From positions 61,017,980 through 61,081,979 of the forward strand of contig NC_068575.1 of assembly GCF_025698545.1 (NCBI RefSeq): a stretch of DNA of 64,000 nucleotides. Direction: 5' to 3'. The stretch is from Gossypium raimondii. Its lineage: Eukaryota; Streptophyta; Magnoliopsida; Malvales; Malvaceae. Below are positions 24,931-36,781 of this stretch, one piece after another (position 1 is the first letter of the stretch; each line of letters begins with the position of its first letter). Position numbers and translations under genes: made by a program. Below the pieces are notes generated by a model, which was given only the letters and a program-made list of their open reading frames with translations, searched no databases and had not been told where the DNA came from.

Positions 24931-26570
24931 AAATTTTAAGTCTTGAAACTCTAAATAATTAAAAACACTACATAAATTTGGTAAATTCGGTTAATTACTC
25001 GATTTCGAACCGAGTTAATTGGTAATCGAAATTCAAAAAAACCATTAACCGACTTTCGATCAAACTAAATTCGGCCACCGATTGATTAACCAAATTAGAT
25101 TAGTTCAGTTGATTAATTCAATTTTAACTAATACCCAAAATTTTTAAAATAAAACATAATTAATCTAAAAAATATAAAATCTAAGAAAACTAATCTAAAA
25201 CCTAAAATTTACTCTTAAAATTCTATGGAATTATGCTACAATAACTCTAACTATAAATGTTATCACTTAAAAATACCTTTCACCTTTCTTTTCGTTTTTA
25301 CTCCTCCTTCTTCACCAATAAATATAACAAAAACTTAATTTTAAATTATTATGAAGCTTAGTTGTCTCGGAGCTTTTATAGATTGTGATATATAATGAAA
25401 GTATTATTTTAAATCTTTTATATAAATTTATAATGCTTTTTTAACACAAACATAATATAAAGAATACCATAAATACTGAAATATATTAAAATTTACAATA
25501 AATAAATTATAAATGCGTCAAAATTTATATAATGCAATTATGTTATAAAGAAAATAAATATACCAATACAGATTTTTAGTAAAAAGAAAAGAAATAAAAT
25601 AAAATATGAAAAATAATTATTTTAATTTAAAACCTTTTAACCTCAAAATTATAAAAGCATGGATAGCAATAATTCAGAGAGATAAACTGATCAAACAACA
25701 AACAAAGTGAATAAAATAATAAGTAAAAGATTGAGCATAAAAATTTTACATGGAAAAACTCTTCAAGAGAGGATAAAAAACCACGGGCAAAAGGAGATTT
25801 TCCTATAATAAAAAATAGTACAAAAGATGGAGAGAGTTAAAATAAAACCTGAAGCCCCATAAGAACAATCATTCGAAACAAAAAACAGAATTCTCTCAAC
25901 CTAAATAATTTTTTGTTGTGTAAAACCTAGAATAATTAAAGCTTATTTATAGGTTGAAACTCGTAGCATATATGACTACAGTAACTCTAAATTTATCGAA
26001 TTTAAGTGAAAAACTAAAACAGAAATGAATTAGGAGAAGAAAAACCAAAATAAACTTTGATCAAAGATATTTTCCCACAAATTCCAAGTATTGCCATTAT
26101 TTACCCAAATTAACTTATAAGCAATTATACAAAGTAGCACCAATTATTAATAGCTACAACACAATGTTAAGTTGTCCCTAAAACAATCACTAATTTCAAT
26201 TATAATTTGTGCAAGATTGCTTTTATTTAATGTTAAGTTATAGACTTGGCCCTTGGAAAAGTAATGGTTTAAATATATTAATAGTCTTTTACTCTAAATT
26301 TTACATTGAAAGAGTAAAGGGAATTTTGATAAATTTAAATCATAAAAAGCTCCCAATTTAGGCAAATACCAATAGACACAAGTGAAGTTTTTGGGTATCT
26401 AATAAAATGTGTCATTCATTTTTTTTTGAAGAATTTTAATTACAATATCATACACTTTCTAGATTAATTCTTTTAATAATTCTTTAATTCTATTTACTGT
26501 TGATTGATTAAATAAAATTAATGTCAAAAATTAAATAAATTAACAAATAATAATACTAACACAAGGTTTA
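24931..26570. repeat. Duplicated block, unit A (first copy)
   Basis: About 1.6 kb of AT-rich, apparently non-coding DNA. It recurs as unit B (26744-28353), and its last 290 bases recur once more (30293-30582). Against B the differences I can see are almost all 1-2 base gains or losses, often in homopolymers or at CG, with hardly any plain substitutions. Confidence 0.9.
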
Positions 26571-26743
26571 TGGTTTTTTTTTTTTTTTCGACTAGATTTA
26601 TGATTTATAGCGCAGTGGGCAAGGGAGAAACTAAAGGCTAATCTAGGGGGCTTCTTGGGCCTCCTAAAATATAAAATTATTATTTAGGTATTTAAAATTT
26701 TAGTAAAGGTAAAATTACACTTTGGCCCCTTAAAATTATAAAA
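26571..26743. repeat. Left part of an interrupted dispersed repeat
   Basis: A T-rich lead-in is followed by text such as AAATTACACTTTGGCCCC, a repeat family also seen at 7.4-7.66 and 49.26-49.49 kb. The continuation of this repeat seems to be at 28354 onward, on the far side of unit B. Confidence 0.5.
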
Positions 26744-28353
26744 AAATTTTAAGTCTTGAAACTCTAAATAATTAAAAACACTACATAAATTTGGTAAATT
26801 CGGTTAATTACTCGATTTGAACCGAGTTAATTGGTAATCGAAATTAAAAAACCATTAACCGACTTTCGATCAAACTAAATTGCCACCGATTGATTAACCA
26901 AATTAGATTAGTTCAGTTGATTAATTCAATTTTAACTAATACCCAAAATTTTTAAAATAAAACATAATTAATCTAAAAATATAAAATCTAAGAAAACTAA
27001 TCTAAAACCTAAAATTTACTCTTAAAATTCTATGGAATTATGCTACAATAACTCTAACTATAAATGTTATCACTTAAAAATACCTTTCACCTTTCTTTTC
27101 GTTTTTACTCCTCCTTCTTCACCAATAAATATAACAAAAACTTAATTTTAAATTATTATGAAGCTTAGTTGTCTCGGAGCTTTTATAGATTGTGATATAT
27201 AATGAAAGTATTATTTTAAATCTTTTATATAAATTTATAATGCTTTTTTAACACAAACATAATATAAAGAATACCATAAATACTGAAATATATTAAAATT
27301 TACAATAAATAAATTATAAATGCGTCAAAATTTATATAATGCAATTATGTTATAAAGAAAATAAATATACCAATACAGATTTTTAGTAAAAGAAAAGAAA
27401 TAAAATAAAATATGAAAAATAATTATTTTAATTTAAAACCTTTTAACCTCAAAATTATAAAAGCATGGATAGCAATAATTCTGTAGGAGATAAACCTGAT
27501 CAAACAACAAACAAAGTGAATAAAATAATAAGTAAAAAGATTGAGCATAAAAATTTTACATGGAAAAACTCTTCAAGAGAGGATAAAAAACCACGGGCAA
27601 AAGGAGATTTTCCTATAATAAAAAATAGTACAAAAGATGGAGAGAGTTAAAATAAAACCTGAAGCCCCATAAGAACAATCATTCAAACAAAAATGAATTC
27701 TCTCAACCTAAATAATTTTTGTTGTGTAAAACCTAGAATAATTAAAGCTTATTTATAGGTTGAAACTCAGTCATATATGACTACAAGAACTCTAAATTTA
27801 TCGAATTTAAGTGAAAAACTAAAAAGAAATGAATTAGGAGAAGAAAAACCAAAATAAACTTTGATCAAAGATATTTTCCCACAAATTCCAAGTATTGCCA
27901 TTATTTACCCAAATTAACTTATAAGCAATTATACAAAGTAGCACCAATTATTAATAGCTACAACACAATGTTAAGTTGTCCCTAAAACAATCACTAATTT
28001 CAATTATAATTTGTGCAAGATTGCTTTTATTTAATGTTAAGTTATAGACTTGGCCCTTGGAAAAGTAATGGTTTAAATATATTAATAGTCTTTTACTCTA
28101 AATTTTACATTGAAAGAGTAAAGGGAATTTTGATAAATTTAAATCATAAAAAAGCTCCCAATTTAGGCAAATACCAATAGACACAAGTGAAGTTTTTGGG
28201 TATCTAATAAAATGTGTCATTCATTTTTTTTTGAAGAATTTTAATTACAATATCATACACTTTCTAGATTAATTCTTTTAATAATTCTTTAATTCTATTT
28301 ACTGTTGATTGATTAAATAAAATTAATGTCAAAAATTAAATAAATTAACAAAT
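26744..28353. repeat. Duplicated block, unit B (second copy of A)
   Basis: Near-identical to 24931-26548 over about 1,610 bases. Examples of differences: ATTTCGAACC in A against ATTTGAACC here, AAATTCGGCCACC against AAATTGCCACC, CTAAAAAATATA against CTAAAAATATA. It seems to be inserted into a dispersed repeat. The 61-codon open frame inside (27465-27650) is broken in unit A and is not taken as a gene. Confidence 0.9.
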
Positions 28354-30292
28354 TAAAATTATAAAATTTGATTTAATCCTTTAAAAATTAAAATTTCACC
28401 CGCCCCTAAAAATATAAAATTTCATTTTGGTCCCTTAAGGTTTACAATTTTAATTTAGTAAAAGATGAAATTGCACTTTACCCATAAAAATGATAAAATT
28501 TTAATTTAATCATTTAAAAGTTATAAAGATATAAGCTATTAAAATTGTAAAATTACATTTCAGCTCTCATAAAATATACAACTTAATTCCTTTCGAAAAA
28601 AATTTCTTACTTACCCGATCGTGGGTTAGAATTTAGAATTTTAAAGAAAAGTTAGATTAAGATCTAAGGTCTAAGATTTTAGGATTTCAGAATTTTATAA
28701 AAAATCAATTTTATTAATTTTAGAGTTAAAATAGTGATACAATTTAATTTGATTTTCTAGATGCATGCATTCTAAAAATATGATGTGCCATGTTATATTG
28801 GGTGCCTAAAATGACTTTTAGGATGATCTTAATATAAGCTAAACTCGTTTCACAAACCATGAGATATAGTGTGGTGGTTGCTCATCACATCCATTAATCA
28901 CAAAGTTGAGAGTTTGATCTCACTTATGAAAATGGAATCCATTTTATTGTCAGTTGTTTACCTTTTTGAAAAGCACCAGCCGCAAGGAGATTAGTGACTA
29001 CTACCGGTTGTGGATACCTTATTTTCGACCAAAAAAGCTTTTTCATGAAACTTTTTATTAAAGTTTTAAATTTTAAAACCGTTAAATATTCTTCCGGTGT
29101 ACGTAAAATATTGAATTTAAACATAAAATTGCAAGTTATATTCGGGACATTAATCTCATAAATTAAACCTAATGAGGCAGCTTGGTGGAGATAAGAACTA
29201 ATAGTGGACAGTTGTGCATGTTGCATTCAAACAAGTTGCAGCAGCCCCCCTCATGCATCTTCATGACTTAATGTGGACATTTCATCTGTCTGTTGGTCCT
29301 ATTCCACAATGTGAATGCTTGTACATATAGACTGAAATCGTAGAACAACGATATTTTTTATATTCGTTGTACGATTTACAGAGACTAATCTCATTAAAAT
29401 TCATGATCCAATAAACGTTATCTTTAAAAGATAAAATCCCAAGGACTGCACAAAACACTTGTTCATATATTTACGATAAAGTAACCATAAATTAAGGACC
29501 ATGCATGCACATATTGCATGTCCATAAAGAGTCGAGCATTGTTCATTTGCCTCACCAGAGCAGCTATTACAATGATATATGCATACATACATAGCACTGC
29601 TAATTAAGGTTTAGTGATGGGAAAAAGTGGGTAGGCAATGGCAAACTGGAAATGTCAAATCCAAGGTCTCCCAAATTATTTGCCTGCTTCTCATGCCCTA
29701 GGAAAATAGCCAACTGTTCTTACTTTCTAGCACGTTCGTGTGATTATTAACGTAGAGTTGGGACTGCTGGAAAATAAAATGGTTCGTCTTTTCGTTTGAA
29801 GCTGATCATTATATCGACAGCTACCATCATATAAAAAGAAAATTGCTTCATTACTCCACAAGAAAATGACTCTGCAGAAAAACAACCATAACGGATGCTT
29901 TCATATATGGTTTCATGTCAACTTCACGTCCATTCAAACAAATTTTGTTCTTACTTGGGAAAGTGGAAAATAGATTTTACTTATACGTGACGTAAGTAAA
30001 ATATTTATATTTATAATTATTGTTAAACTTTATTTGAGTTTAGGGTTAAAAATAAGCTCGGGTTTATATTTTATTGGATAAATGAATCTAATCAAAGCTT
30101 TAATTTATATTATTTATTTACTTAAAGCAAATTTTGTTTAGAACTGAACTTTGTGGGTTTGATCGAATTTTTCTGTTTTAATTAGTATTAATCAACTTTG
30201 ATTTGAACTTGTGCTTTTCAAGTGAAACATGGTTGAACTGGAATTAAGCATCAAATCTCATGTCCTAATATCAAACATTTATTCTATATTCT
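28354..30292. repeat. Duplicated block, unit C (copy 1)
   Basis: Starts with the right part of the interrupted dispersed repeat (to about 28,610), contains a SINE-like two-box stretch at 28,855-28,925, and then about 1.3 kb of unique-looking non-coding DNA. It recurs at 30581-32760 and, from 28954 on, at 32761-34510. Homopolymers in the first 800 bases tend to be one base shorter than in copy 2 (for example AGTTAAAATAG against AGTTAAAAATAG), whereas the part from about 29,230 on looks identical in all copies. Confidence 0.9.
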
Positions 30293-30582
30293 ATAGTCTT
30301 TTACTCTAAATTTTACATTGAAAGAGTAAAGGGAATTTTGATAAATTTAAATCATAAAAAGCTCCCAATTTAGGCAAATACCAATAGACACAAGTGAAGT
30401 TTTTGGGTATCTAATAAAATGTGTCATTCATTTTTTTTTGAAGAATTTTAATTACAATATCATACACTTTCTAGATTAATTCTTTTAATAATTCTTTAAT
30501 TCTATTTACTGTTGATTGATTAAATAAAATTAATGTCAAAAATTAAATAAATTAACAAATAATAATACTAACACAAGGTTTA
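30293..30582. repeat. Third, partial copy of unit A (3' end only)
   Basis: Matches 26281-26570 and includes the ending ACACAAGGTTTA that unit B lacks. It joins unit C copy 1 on its left through the short shared word ATAG, and unit C copy 2 directly on its right. Confidence 0.88.
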
Positions 30583-32760
30583 AAATTATAAAATTTGATT
30601 TAATCCTTTAAAAATTAAAATTTCACCCGCCCCTAAAAATATAAAATTTCATTTTGGTCCCTTAAGGTTTACAATTTTAATTTAGTAAAAGATGAAATTG
30701 CACTTTACCCATAAAAAATGATAAAATTTTAATTTAATCATTTAAAAGTTATAAAGATATAAGCTATTAAAATTGTAAAATTACATTTCAGCTCTCATAA
30801 AAATATACAACTTAATTACGCTTCAAAAAAATTTCTTACTTACTTTGATCGTGGGTTAGAATTTAGAATTTTAAAGAAAAAGTTAGATTAAGATCTAAGG
30901 TCTAAGATTTTAGGATTTCAGAATTTTATAAAAAAATCAATTTTATTAATTTTAGAGTTAAAAATAGTGATACAATTTAATTTGATTTTTCTAGATGCAT
31001 GCATTCTAAAAAATATGATGTGCCATGTTATATTGGGTGCCTAAAAATGACTTTTTAGGATGATCTTAATATAAGCTAAACTCGTTTTCACAAACCATGA
31101 GATATAGTGTGGTGGTTGCTCATCACATCCATTAATCACAAAGTTGAGAGTTTGATCTCACTTATGAAAATGGAATCCATTTTATTGTCAATTGTTTACC
31201 TTTTGAAAAGCACCACGCAAGGAGATTAGTGACTACTACGGTTGTGGATACCTTATTTTGTGTACGTAAAATATTGAATTTAAACATAAAATTGCAAGTT
31301 ATATTCGGGGACATTAATCTCATAAATTAAACCTAATGAGGCAGCTTGGTGGAGATAAGAACTAATAGTGGACAGTTGTGCATGTTGCATTCAAACAAGT
31401 TGCAGCAGCCCCCCTCATGCATCTTCATGACTTAATGTGGACATTTCATCTGTCTGTTGGTCCTATTCCACAATGTGAATGCTTGTACATATAGACTGAA
31501 ATCGTAGAACAACGATATTTTTTATATTCGTTGTACGATTTACAGAGACTAATCTCATTAAAATTCATGATCCAATAAACGTTATCTTTAAAAGATAAAA
31601 TCCCAAGGACTGCACAAAACACTTGTTCATATATTTACGATAAAGTAACCATAAATTAAGGACCATGCATGCACATATTGCATGTCCATAAAGAGTCGAG
31701 CATTGTTCATTTGCCTCACCAGAGCAGCTATTACAATGATATATGCATACATACATAGCACTGCTAATTAAGGTTTAGTGATGGGAAAAAGTGGGTAGGC
31801 AATGGCAAACTGGAAATGTCAAATCCAAGGTCTCCCAAATTATTTGCCTGCTTCTCATGCCCTAGGAAAATAGCCAACTGTTCTTACTTTCTAGCACGTT
31901 CGTGTGATTATTAACGTAGAGTTGGGACTGCTGGAAAATAAAATGGTTCGTCTTTTCGTTTGAAGCTGATCATTATATCGACAGCTACCATCATATAAAA
32001 AGAAAATTGCTTCATTACTCCACAAGAAAATGACTCTGCAGAAAAACAACCATAACGGATGCTTTCATATATGGTTTCATGTCAACTTCACGTCCATTCA
32101 AACAAATTTTGTTCTTACTTGGGAAAGTGGAAAATAGATTTTACTTATACGTGACGTAAGTAAAATATTTATATTTATAATTATTGTTAAACTTTATTTG
32201 AGTTTAGGGTTAAAAATAAGCTCGGGTTTATATTTTATTGGATAAATGAATCTAATCAAAGCTTTAATTTATATTATTTATTTACTTAAAGCAAATTTTG
32301 TTTAGAACTGAACTTTGTGGGTTTGATCGAATTTTTCTGTTTTAATTAGTATTAATCAACTTTGATTTGAACTTGTGCTTTTCAAGTGAAACATGGTTGA
32401 ACTGGAATTAAGCATCAAATCTCATGTCCTAATATCAAACATTTATTCTATATTCTATATTCTATATTCAACCCAATTTCAAATAATGTAATACTAATAT
32501 ACCCTCAAACAAAACATAACTGGAAAACTTCATTGTCGTCTAATTACTTGCTTTATTGACAAAAATTTCAAAGTTTGATTAGATGCAACAAAGCAATTAA
32601 AATAATATATTTTTAGAGTTTTACTTACGTTAACCTCTTAAAATCACAGTTACGATTTTAAGTTCCGTCGTTCTTAACAAGTACTCTTTTAAAATATGGT
32701 AAAAATTCGAATGAAAATAAAATAAATAGATAATTTGTGATATAACTTACGAACTTAAAA
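30581..32760. repeat. Duplicated block, unit C (copy 2)
   Basis: Second copy of 28354 onward. It lacks about 80 bases present in copy 1 (between TTATTT and GTGTACGTAAAATA near 31,257) but continues about 300 bases further to the right than copy 1 before joining copy 3. Confidence 0.9.
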
Positions 32761-34510
32761 TTGTTTACCTTTTGAAAAGCACCACCGCAAGGAGATTAGT
32801 GACTACTACCGGTTGTGGATACCTTATTTTCGACCCAAAAAGCTTTTTCATGAAACTTTTTATTAAAGTTTTTAAATTTTAAAACGACATTATTAAGAGA
32901 AATAGCTCAAACCTCGAACATAAATGAATATAAAAAATAAAAATAAAAACCAATCTGATGAAATTTTGTTTTCAAAATATTGAATCCGTTAAATATTCTT
33001 CCGGTGTACGTAAAATATTGAATTTAAACATAAAATTGCAAGTTATATTCGGGGACATTAATCTCATAAATTAAACCTAATGAGGCAGCTTGGTGGAGAT
33101 AAGAACTAATAGTGGACAGTTGTGCATGTTGCATTCAAACAAGTTGCAGCAGCCCCCCTCATGCATCTTCATGACTTAATGTGGACATTTCATCTGTCTG
33201 TTGGTCCTATTCCACAATGTGAATGCTTGTACATATAGACTGAAATCGTAGAACAACGATATTTTTTATATTCGTTGTACGATTTACAGAGACTAATCTC
33301 ATTAAAATTCATGATCCAATAAACGTTATCTTTAAAAGATAAAATCCCAAGGACTGCACAAAACACTTGTTCATATATTTACGATAAAGTAACCATAAAT
33401 TAAGGACCATGCATGCACATATTGCATGTCCATAAAGAGTCGAGCATTGTTCATTTGCCTCACCAGAGCAGCTATTACAATGATATATGCATACATACAT
33501 AGCACTGCTAATTAAGGTTTAGTGATGGGAAAAAGTGGGTAGGCAATGGCAAACTGGAAATGTCAAATCCAAGGTCTCCCAAATTATTTGCCTGCTTCTC
33601 ATGCCCTAGGAAAATAGCCAACTGTTCTTACTTTCTAGCACGTTCGTGTGATTATTAACGTAGAGTTGGGACTGCTGGAAAATAAAATGGTTCGTCTTTT
33701 CGTTTGAAGCTGATCATTATATCGACAGCTACCATCATATAAAAAGAAAATTGCTTCATTACTCCACAAGAAAATGACTCTGCAGAAAAACAACCATAAC
33801 GGATGCTTTCATATATGGTTTCATGTCAACTTCACGTCCATTCAAACAAATTTTGTTCTTACTTGGGAAAGTGGAAAATAGATTTTACTTATACGTGACG
33901 TAAGTAAAATATTTATATTTATAATTATTGTTAAACTTTATTTGAGTTTAGGGTTAAAAATAAGCTCGGGTTTATATTTTATTGGATAAATGAATCTAAT
34001 CAAAGCTTTAATTTATATTATTTATTTACTTAAAGCAAATTTTGTTTAGAACTGAACTTTGTGGGTTTGATCGAATTTTTCTGTTTTAATTAGTATTAAT
34101 CAACTTTGATTTGAACTTGTGCTTTTCAAGTGAAACATGGTTGAACTGGAATTAAGCATCAAATCTCATGTCCTAATATCAAACATTTATTCTATATTCT
34201 ATATTCTATATTCAACCCAATTTCAAATAATGTAATACTAATATACCCTCAAACAAAACATAACTGGAAAACTTCATTGTCGTCTAATTACTTGCTTTAT
34301 TGACAAAAATTTCAAAGTTTGATTAGATGCAACAAAGCAATTAAAATAATATATTTTTTTAGAGTTTTACTTACGTTAACCTCTTAAAATCACGAGTTAC
34401 GATTTTAAGTTCCCGGTCGTTCTTAACAAGTACTCTTTTAAAATATGGTAGAAAATTCGAATGAAAATAAAATAAATAGATAATTTGTGATATAACTTAC
34501 GAACTTAAAA
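32761..34510. repeat. Duplicated block, unit C (copy 3)
   Basis: Third copy, beginning at TTGTTTACC (equal to 28954 and 31192). It has about 110 bases near 32,885-32,990 that both other copies lack, so it is the most complete version of the middle part. The right end runs on into unduplicated DNA. Confidence 0.9.
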
Positions 34511-36062
34511 TGAATCAGAAACGAACCAACGTTATAAAACGTGACCTAATTTCTATAGAAAGAAGAACCTTGATCTACTATCTATATGGAGATAAGAGCC
34601 AAAGGTATAGAGTTGATCACCACACTCCGAAAATACGAGAAGAGAAGAGATAAAAATTGAAAATGGATCAACACCACAAAACAAATTTTTAATATGTTGG
34701 GAATAATTAATAAAGAATAATTAAGAACAAAGAGTTATCACTCAAAAAAAAGTATATTTATCAAAATAGGCTAACCTTTTACAAAACATATGACTAACTA
34801 TATATAGGAAAGCATCTAGGTAAATAAATGGCCACAAATACGACCATGAATTACATGTATAAACCTATTCATGAACCAATTTAATGATGCAAGTTCATTC
34901 ATAAAGTCACATTCTTCCCCCATGCCGTATACATTCATCTTAAGGCCGTTCAATGTATATGAGAATGGACACATTCTCCTACCTTTGGACGTGCATGCAT
35001 GTTGACATTCATTCCCTTTGTCAAATGCATCTCCTTGCATGTTCATGCATCCACAAGTTCATTGTTCAGCATTTAGTTTGTACAACACCCCCTTGGACGT
35101 AGATGCATGTGGATGTGCATGTATCAGCCGAATAGTCACTTTAATCCCCTTGTAATGCTATTCATTCATGGCAAGTTCATACATTGAATTCGGCCATGCG
35201 TTCATGTGCAGAAACCTTGAATCTATGGTGGAATATGAAGAGACGTATGGACTTGGTTGAGTACATGAATCCATGGTGCATGTGTTTGTCATGGAAAACG
35301 ATCAACCACTTGAGGAAATATGGTCACACGAATGAACCTGAAAACAATATAAAAAGGGTTCACGAGATCACAACCAAAACACTCAAACAAAGATATAACA
35401 CATAAGACTTGAAAAAAAGGGAAAACATAGCTATATTACTAATGAAATTAAACATGTTGTGATCACAAAATAAACGTGAAAATATTTAATCTTAAAAAAT
35501 CGTGGAATTTAAATAAAAGTAATTTGAACTTCAAAAGTTCACGTGTAAAATGTTGCATGGATTTGTTAGTTTTCATCTTGCATTTAGACCCTTCGAGTTT
35601 GATTTAATTTTAAGTTCTTTTAGTCGATTTACATGATGTGACCCGTATCACATCACTTATTTAGAGATATTTTCTTAAGTAATTTTTTTCAAAAATAATA
35701 TCTCTCGAATATCTTCACTAATCATAATCCCGTATATTGTTGATCAAAATTCTAAAAAAAGAAAAAGTGAATAATCAAAATATTTAAGTTAAAATATTCG
35801 CAAGTTACACGACGTTTTGTGAGTTGCGTGCAACTAACCATTTTAATATAATTAAATAAGATTTAAGATATATTTTAATAAATCTCAAAAAGTAAGTTTT
35901 TAATAATGACTTAATCTAACTTGAATTGTTCTATAAATTTAATTATAACAATATTTTTGAAATATGTTTCTTTAAAAATATTTTAACAATTTTCAAATAA
36001 AGAATAGATTCTTAAAATAAAATAAAATGTTGCAATATTATATAATAGGTTGTTGTTTAATG
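34511..36062. other. Non-coding region with a CATG-dense block
   Basis: From about 34,840 to 35,330 the sequence is full of CATG and ATGCATG words (17 CATG by my count in roughly 490 bases) and is less AT-rich than its surroundings. A TATA-like TATAAAAAGG follows at about 35,350. The short frames on both strands here (34816-35046 minus, 35184-35405 plus) are Met-rich because of the CATG words and have no family signature. It may be part of an LTR or a decayed element. The remainder is AT-rich spacer. Confidence 0.4.
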
Positions 36063-36781
36063 GATAAACTATATAGATAGTCATCTAACTATAAAAATTT
36101 CATTTTAGGTATCTAAAATAAAATGTTTACAATGTAAGCACTCATGTTATATAGTTCGGTTATTTTGATCACTCCCGTTAAAATTATAAATGACAAGTTG
36201 ATGTTGCAGTTAAAAAATTGATATAATAACAAAATTAGCCTCAACTTCTACATATTATATCAATTTAGTCATTTTTTAAAAAATAACCATAAAATTATAA
36301 ATATTCTCAATTGATCATTATTCTAAAAATCAAAGAAATATATAAAAATACATAAATATTTTTTAAAATATAATAATAAACATAAATATAATAAATATTA
36401 ATAGTAAATGTTTAAAATTATTAATACATTTTTTGAAAATATTTATTTTATGTTTTAAAATTATTTTATATATATTTAAAATATTTATGTATTTTATATA
36501 TTTCTTTGAATTTTTAGAATAAGGATCAAATTGAGAACATCTGTAAACTTGGGGTTAATTTTTAAAATTATGACTAAATTGATATAATATGTAAAGTTGA
36601 GGGCTAAATTTGTTATTATACTAATTTTTAACTGTTACGTTAACTTGCCATTTGTGATTTTAATGGGAGTGACTAAAATGAACGAACTATATAATGTGAG
36701 TGCTTAAATTGTAAAACTTTTTTTATTTTAGATGCGTAAAATAAATTTTTTATAATTGAATGATTATCATAATAATTTAGT
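36063..36781. mobile_element. Fold-back element with about 330-bp inverted arms
   Basis: The left arm (ATAGTCATCTAACTATAAA ... TTTAAGCACTC-like ... GTTATATAGTTCG ... CACTCCCGTTAAAAT) is repeated in reverse on the right (…TGGGAGTGACTAAAATGAACG … TATAATGTGAGTGCTTAAAT …). The arms meet at an AT-rich centre near 36,400. There is no coding capacity. Words from its arms also occur at 3.7-3.9 kb. This is a MITE or fold-back element, possibly Mutator-like, but no clean target-site duplication was found. Confidence 0.75.

Follow-up and report, generated by a model that had tools for sequence, protein, structure and literature searches.

Among the systems closest to the locus described here are the complex duplications attributed to template switching (FoSTeS/MMBIR-like); within one locus they combine several jumps, backward as well as forward, that keep a single orientation, and their joins carry short or no microhomology. 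The block of repeats analysed in this work shows jumps and joins of the same kind. It differs in that its microhomology is not above chance, and the comparison concerns an undated and unpolarised event within one genome.

A second system is the false duplication of the homotype class, whose copies, according to the passages of PMC9516828 that define it, are near-identical, lie on one scaffold, differ by sequence errors and are separated by a gap. The block shares the first three of these features; unlike that definition, it has no gap between the copies and contains seven joins, and a linked insertion is located 1.6 Mb away from it. Sequence errors, to judge from their pattern, are present both in the copies of the block and in structurally sound copies elsewhere.

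A third system is represented by the insertions that patch-mediated break repair is described to leave in plants (Vaughn and Bennetzen 2014, as cited in PMC5244254 and PMC6097286), in which ectopic fragments are placed between direct repeats of the target. The linked insertion, found at 59.43 Mb of C11, has this structure: exact repeats of 99 bp enclose one fragment from C11:61.05 Mb and one from C5:47.63 Mb, and its joins carry 17-24 bp of unmatched sequence. The block itself is not a patch-mediated insertion, since no ectopic fragment was found inside it.

Setting and organization of the block

The window, i.e., the whole stretch of 64,000 nucleotides that was analysed (C11:61017980-61081979), contains no N bases, and the copies follow one another without an intervening gap. 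Copies were searched for in the whole genome (750.8 Mb, 281 contigs). The three ORFs submitted to Pfam were all of usual plant kinds:

4.6 kb in the window: mitochondrial carrier ORF
17.1 kb in the window: NAM/NAC ORF
40.1 kb in the window: PPR protein ORF, 718 aa

The block is intergenic and lies between the NAM/NAC and the PPR ORFs. An RNA gene as its content was rejected, the comparison of Rfam with window positions 20001-44000 having given no match. Since, in addition, the sole listed ORF of at least 100 aa inside the block is exactly 100 aa long (28924-29226, minus strand), no function is implied for it. To the right of the block, self-BLAST also disclosed an imperfect palindrome at 36076-36768, where about 700 bp align with their reverse complement at 81%.

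The original prediction of a tandem, near-identical block was confirmed, at the positions given for it, by self-BLAST and pairwise alignment, which resolve it into four overlapping pieces, in the order A, B-C1, A3-C2 and C3, composed as follows:

24931-26743, plus strand: A, the first piece, part of a transposon-derived repeat (self-BLAST, alignment, relatives and model)
26744-28353, plus strand: B, second copy of A (positions 601-2218 of the model described below)
28353-30299, plus strand: C1, following B after a forward skip of 181 bp, with about 90-100 bp missing near 29079
30293-30582, plus strand: A3, a third but incomplete copy of A, with 290/290 identities to A 26281-26570
30580-32761, plus strand: C2, following A3 after a forward skip of 159 bp, with 173 bp missing after 31259
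32761-34511, plus strand: C3, the last piece, continuous with the right flank

The segment 26549-26729 is present in a single copy, within the A piece, and C3 keeps the segment that is partly missing from C1 and C2. The two segments kept by A and C3 are lacking to different extents in the inner pieces, B-C1 being devoid of 181 and about 90-100 bp of them, and A3-C2 of 159 and 173 bp. C1 breaks off within a TTCTATA repeat, at the equivalent of position 34207.

Origin of the block from a single locus

A single ancestral locus, in which A is directly followed by C, accounts for the whole block. Along this one-locus model, the path follows the left flank as far as 26743, returns to 24931 and continues to 28353, where it skips 181 bp; it then traverses C1, except for the missing 90-100 bp, up to 30299, returns to 26281, skips 159 bp, traverses C2, except for the missing 173 bp, up to 32761, and finally returns into C and passes through C3 into the right flank. 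The path jumps backward three times and forward four times without a change of orientation, which makes seven joins. In the model, a single copy would measure about 4.2 kb, against about 9.6 kb for the block between 24.9 and 34.5 kb. The starts and the ends of the pieces advance strictly from left to right along the model, of which neighbouring pieces share 1.81, 2.50 and 1.75 kb. Neither of two simpler arrangements matches this structure. An ordinary tandem array generated by unequal crossing-over is at odds with three backward joins located at different places; the overlap of two unmerged contig ends, which had been proposed for this block, was also discarded, as it would give one join, with one backward jump.

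A ends and C begins within one and the same transposon sequence. When 11 relatives of this transposon, fetched out of 40 non-self matches, were compared with the two alternative junctions, A joined to C outscored A running into B in all 11 cases. The join shares a motif of 14 bp. On A-C, ten relatives extend 27-72 bases beyond this motif, whereas the remaining one ends 2 bases beyond it; on A-B, eight of the 11 end at the motif, and the other three (L060, L064 and L070) continue with lower scores.

The microhomology at the seven joins, scored by eye, is 0, 1, 1, 3, 3, 0 and 3 bp; the sum of 11 is not above chance (p = 0.088), and microhomology was rejected as a proof of a real event. Secondary structure was likewise rejected as the cause of the twice-skipped segments, which fold no better than shuffled sequences (z = 0.62 and 0.74).

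Differences between the copies

The comparison of A (24931-26548) with B (26744-28353) revealed 98.5% identity and, as had been predicted, many short indels with few substitutions: 15 of the 16 gaps are of 1-2 bp, and none of the three substitutions is isolated, two being adjacent at 25981 and one lying within an indel cluster at 25885. A and A3 do not differ; B and A3 differ by two gaps, one of which is at the boundary. The left 0.67 kb of C1 and C2 differ by 16 gaps and five substitutions. The prediction that homopolymers are shorter in C1 than in C2 holds for 10/10 simple homopolymer differences in the interval 28486-28848, but not at 28963, where C1 is the longer one. Similarly, the middle of C, about 1.2 kb that had been described as identical in the three copies, is so for C2 and C3, whereas C1 departs from C3 by one indel (29144). 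C2 and C3 differ by four gaps and no substitution, all within the last 152 bp of C2 (32610-32702); C1 and C3 differ over 28954-29081 by three substitutions and three gaps, which lie partly at the boundary of this stretch.

Five comparisons (A/B, the left part of C1/C2, the core of C1/C3, C2/C3, and C3 plus flank versus the copy at 59.43 Mb) gave a total of 10 substitutions versus 45 indels of 1-2 bp in 6,495 columns, this count omitting C1/C3 over 28954-29081, A/A3 and B/A3; with these figures, the copies are near-identical and lack haplotype-like substitutions. Isolated substitutions are almost absent, numbering three (28953, 29031 and 35466) even when the omitted comparisons are included. 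In three stretches, 38/44 difference events coincide with a CG or with a homopolymer of at least four bases (12/15, 14/16 and 12/13, against 5.2, 6.3 and 4.1 expected from random placement); the enrichment at CG alone is weaker (p = 0.016, 0.017 and 0.11).

The middle of A and B is part of a repeat family, and its alignment with 20 relatives was used to assess the polarity of the A/B differences. The copy that deviates from the family is A at about 25676-25687 and at 25725, and B at 25875-25885, 25963 and 26020; at 25909 and 25981 the 20 relatives leave the direction undecided. Since each copy deviates at different sites, derived, error-like states are present in A as well as in B. Compared with C3, the tail of C2 has lost bases at all four places where the two differ; at three of these sites the copy at 59.43 Mb matches C3, and at the fourth, a T-run, it is intermediate. 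Some of the differences are close to the ends of pieces, namely the start of B and the end of C2.

Four older repeat pairs of the same genome, in the same orientation, 7.3-7.7 kb apart and 4-6% diverged, which were taken for LTR pairs, show 208 substitutions versus 16 indels of 1-2 bp, against 10 versus 45 in the block (Fisher p = 1.3e-28). Eight young copia LTR pairs, selected from 150 scored RVT_2 matches because of their long open frames, were compared over 3,518 columns, which show 42 substitutions against 15 indels of 1-2 bp; the block thus has more indels (6.9 vs 4.3 per kb; Fisher p = 2.6e-9). The class of change, however, is common to both: 12 of the 15 young-LTR indels occur in two pairs, L055 and L057, at CAG, CTG, CG and homopolymers, the others being in L051 (two) and L058 (one), and none in L052, L053, L054 and L056. 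The difference clusters of L055 (1217-1701/5741-6221) and L057 (1123-1548/5554-5975) are located at CG, CAG and CTG, which suggests local under-polishing elsewhere in the assembly. LTRs of about 500 bp would be polishable from anchored read pairs, whereas copies of 1.5-3.4 kb hardly would.

In a bacterial benchmark, nanopore consensus errors occurred chiefly at methylated motifs and homopolymers, and consensus identity was 99.3-99.5% for one basecaller before further polishing, as reported in the sections of PMC6591954 on these points. The pattern of the block fits nanopore-type consensus error, the sequencing method itself being presumed, and 6.9 indels per kb between two copies is of the order of that benchmark. 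As originally predicted, the small base differences, which lie at homopolymers and CG and include hardly any isolated substitution, are very probably artefacts, i.e., residual consensus errors. These would persist in near-identical copies that exceed a short-read pair in length, since few polishing reads can be placed uniquely on them. It is highly improbable that the indels are, instead, real mutations from the same error-prone, slippage-prone synthesis that made the copies, even though recently copied DNA differs here mainly by indels and the gaps of the 59.43 Mb fragment are all losses with respect to the window. Indeed, the same CG, CAG/CTG and homopolymer changes occur between the LTRs of retrotransposons, which arise by a different kind of copying, and the nanopore consensus profile documented, for bacteria, in those sections of PMC6591954 is one of errors at methylated motifs and homopolymers.

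A linked compound insertion at 59.43 Mb of C11

Genome searches with C3 and its right flank detected a second occurrence of part of the locus, within a compound insertion:

Window 34198-35673, plus strand: end of C3 and right flank, copied to C11:59428273-59429737
C11:59428150-59433268: compound insertion with its flanking repeats (genome search and fetched sequence)

All of the 23 candidates of the C3 search were scored, and none of them is on an unplaced contig; the A search is represented by the best 40 of 3167 candidates, and further weak copies are possible. The direct repeats of the insertion, 99 bp long, lie at 59428150-59428248 and, in exact form, at 59433170-59433268. Between them are found, in order, 24 bp unmatched, the fragment of 1,465 bp from the window locus, 19 bp unmatched that correspond to AGTTCTTTT twice, 3,396 bp matching C5:47632176-47628803 in inverted orientation, and 17 bp unmatched. 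The word AGTTCTTTT also occurs near the right end of the window-derived fragment, which starts 9 bases before the equivalent of the C1 break in the TTCTATA repeat. The stretch at 59.43 Mb contains no N bases.

The window-derived fragment differs from the window by one substitution and nine gaps over 1.48 kb, all nine being losses and none a gain. The C5 part, compared with the 47.63 Mb copy only, differs from its source by 42 clusters in 3,408 columns; these comprise 37 gaps and 16 substitutions, four of the latter isolated, and are located mostly at homopolymers, CG or CAG motifs. Three related stretches of C5, at 47.59, 47.61 and 47.63 Mb within C5:47588754-47632176, contain tandem repeats. 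In our judgement, a mis-assembly would hardly yield two ectopic fragments between exact target repeats.

Real versus false duplication

The duplication is probably real and recent. According to this reading, an intergenic A-C locus would have been amplified in place into a four-piece mosaic that is present in the plant, and the three backward and four forward jumps would be those left by error-prone break repair or by replication with template switching, in one or a few recent events; the base-level indels would be leftover long-read consensus errors. In its favour are the fit of the one-locus model to the whole block, the preference of all 11 relatives for A-C, a number of joins exceeding that of a simple contig overlap, the absence of N both in the window and in the 59.43 Mb stretch, the absence of the 23 C3 candidates from unplaced contigs, and an insertion that holds a fragment of the same locus starting near the C1 break. 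A serious rival, which we regard as somewhat doubtful, is a false duplication of the homotype kind, in which the plant would have one A-C copy and four overlapping consensus pieces, each retaining its own errors, would have been laid end to end unmerged. Such a series could produce the observed jumps, and under-collapsed sequence from read errors is among the false duplications described in the relevant part of PMC9516828. The strict order of the overlapping pieces, the scarcity of isolated substitutions and the derived error-like states of A and of B agree with it, as do the bases lost within the last 152 bp of C2, where the 59.43 Mb copy sides with C3 at 3/4 sites and is intermediate at the fourth.

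Several observations count against a real duplication: besides the ordered overlaps, parts of the same two segments are skipped twice with different breakpoints, which is odd for independent real events, differences lie near the start of B and the end of C2, the microhomology at the joins is not above chance, and the block exceeds in indels the eight young LTR pairs, four of which have no indel of 1-2 bp. On the other side, false copies would leave the linked insertion in need of a separate explanation, no gap and no N separate the copies, and pieces of 2.5-3.6 kb would be short relative to long reads. Moreover, the base-level signature also occurs in structurally sound copies (LTR pairs and the C5 part of the insertion). 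The claim that indel-only differences denote a false duplication did not survive this control: the 59.43 Mb insertion and two of the eight young LTR pairs are alike in this respect, so that this class of error is compatible with real copies and reflects polishing rather than the existence of the copies. What remains beside these two readings and that of real indel mutations falls to something else.

Small indels between near-identical copies in this assembly should be used neither to date the copies nor as mutations; nor do they prove that the copies are false, since duplications of sound structure show them too. It is also conceivable, although unlikely, that one accident of break repair or replication made both the block and the 59.43 Mb insertion with its 3.4 kb from C5, a different chromosome; if so, this would be a small and very young plant chromoanasynthesis, the sources and targets of which are still readable. 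If the duplication is real, the locus would represent a mosaic duplication of very recent date, accompanied by a linked insertion from break repair, in which the patching of breaks in a plant genome can still be read.
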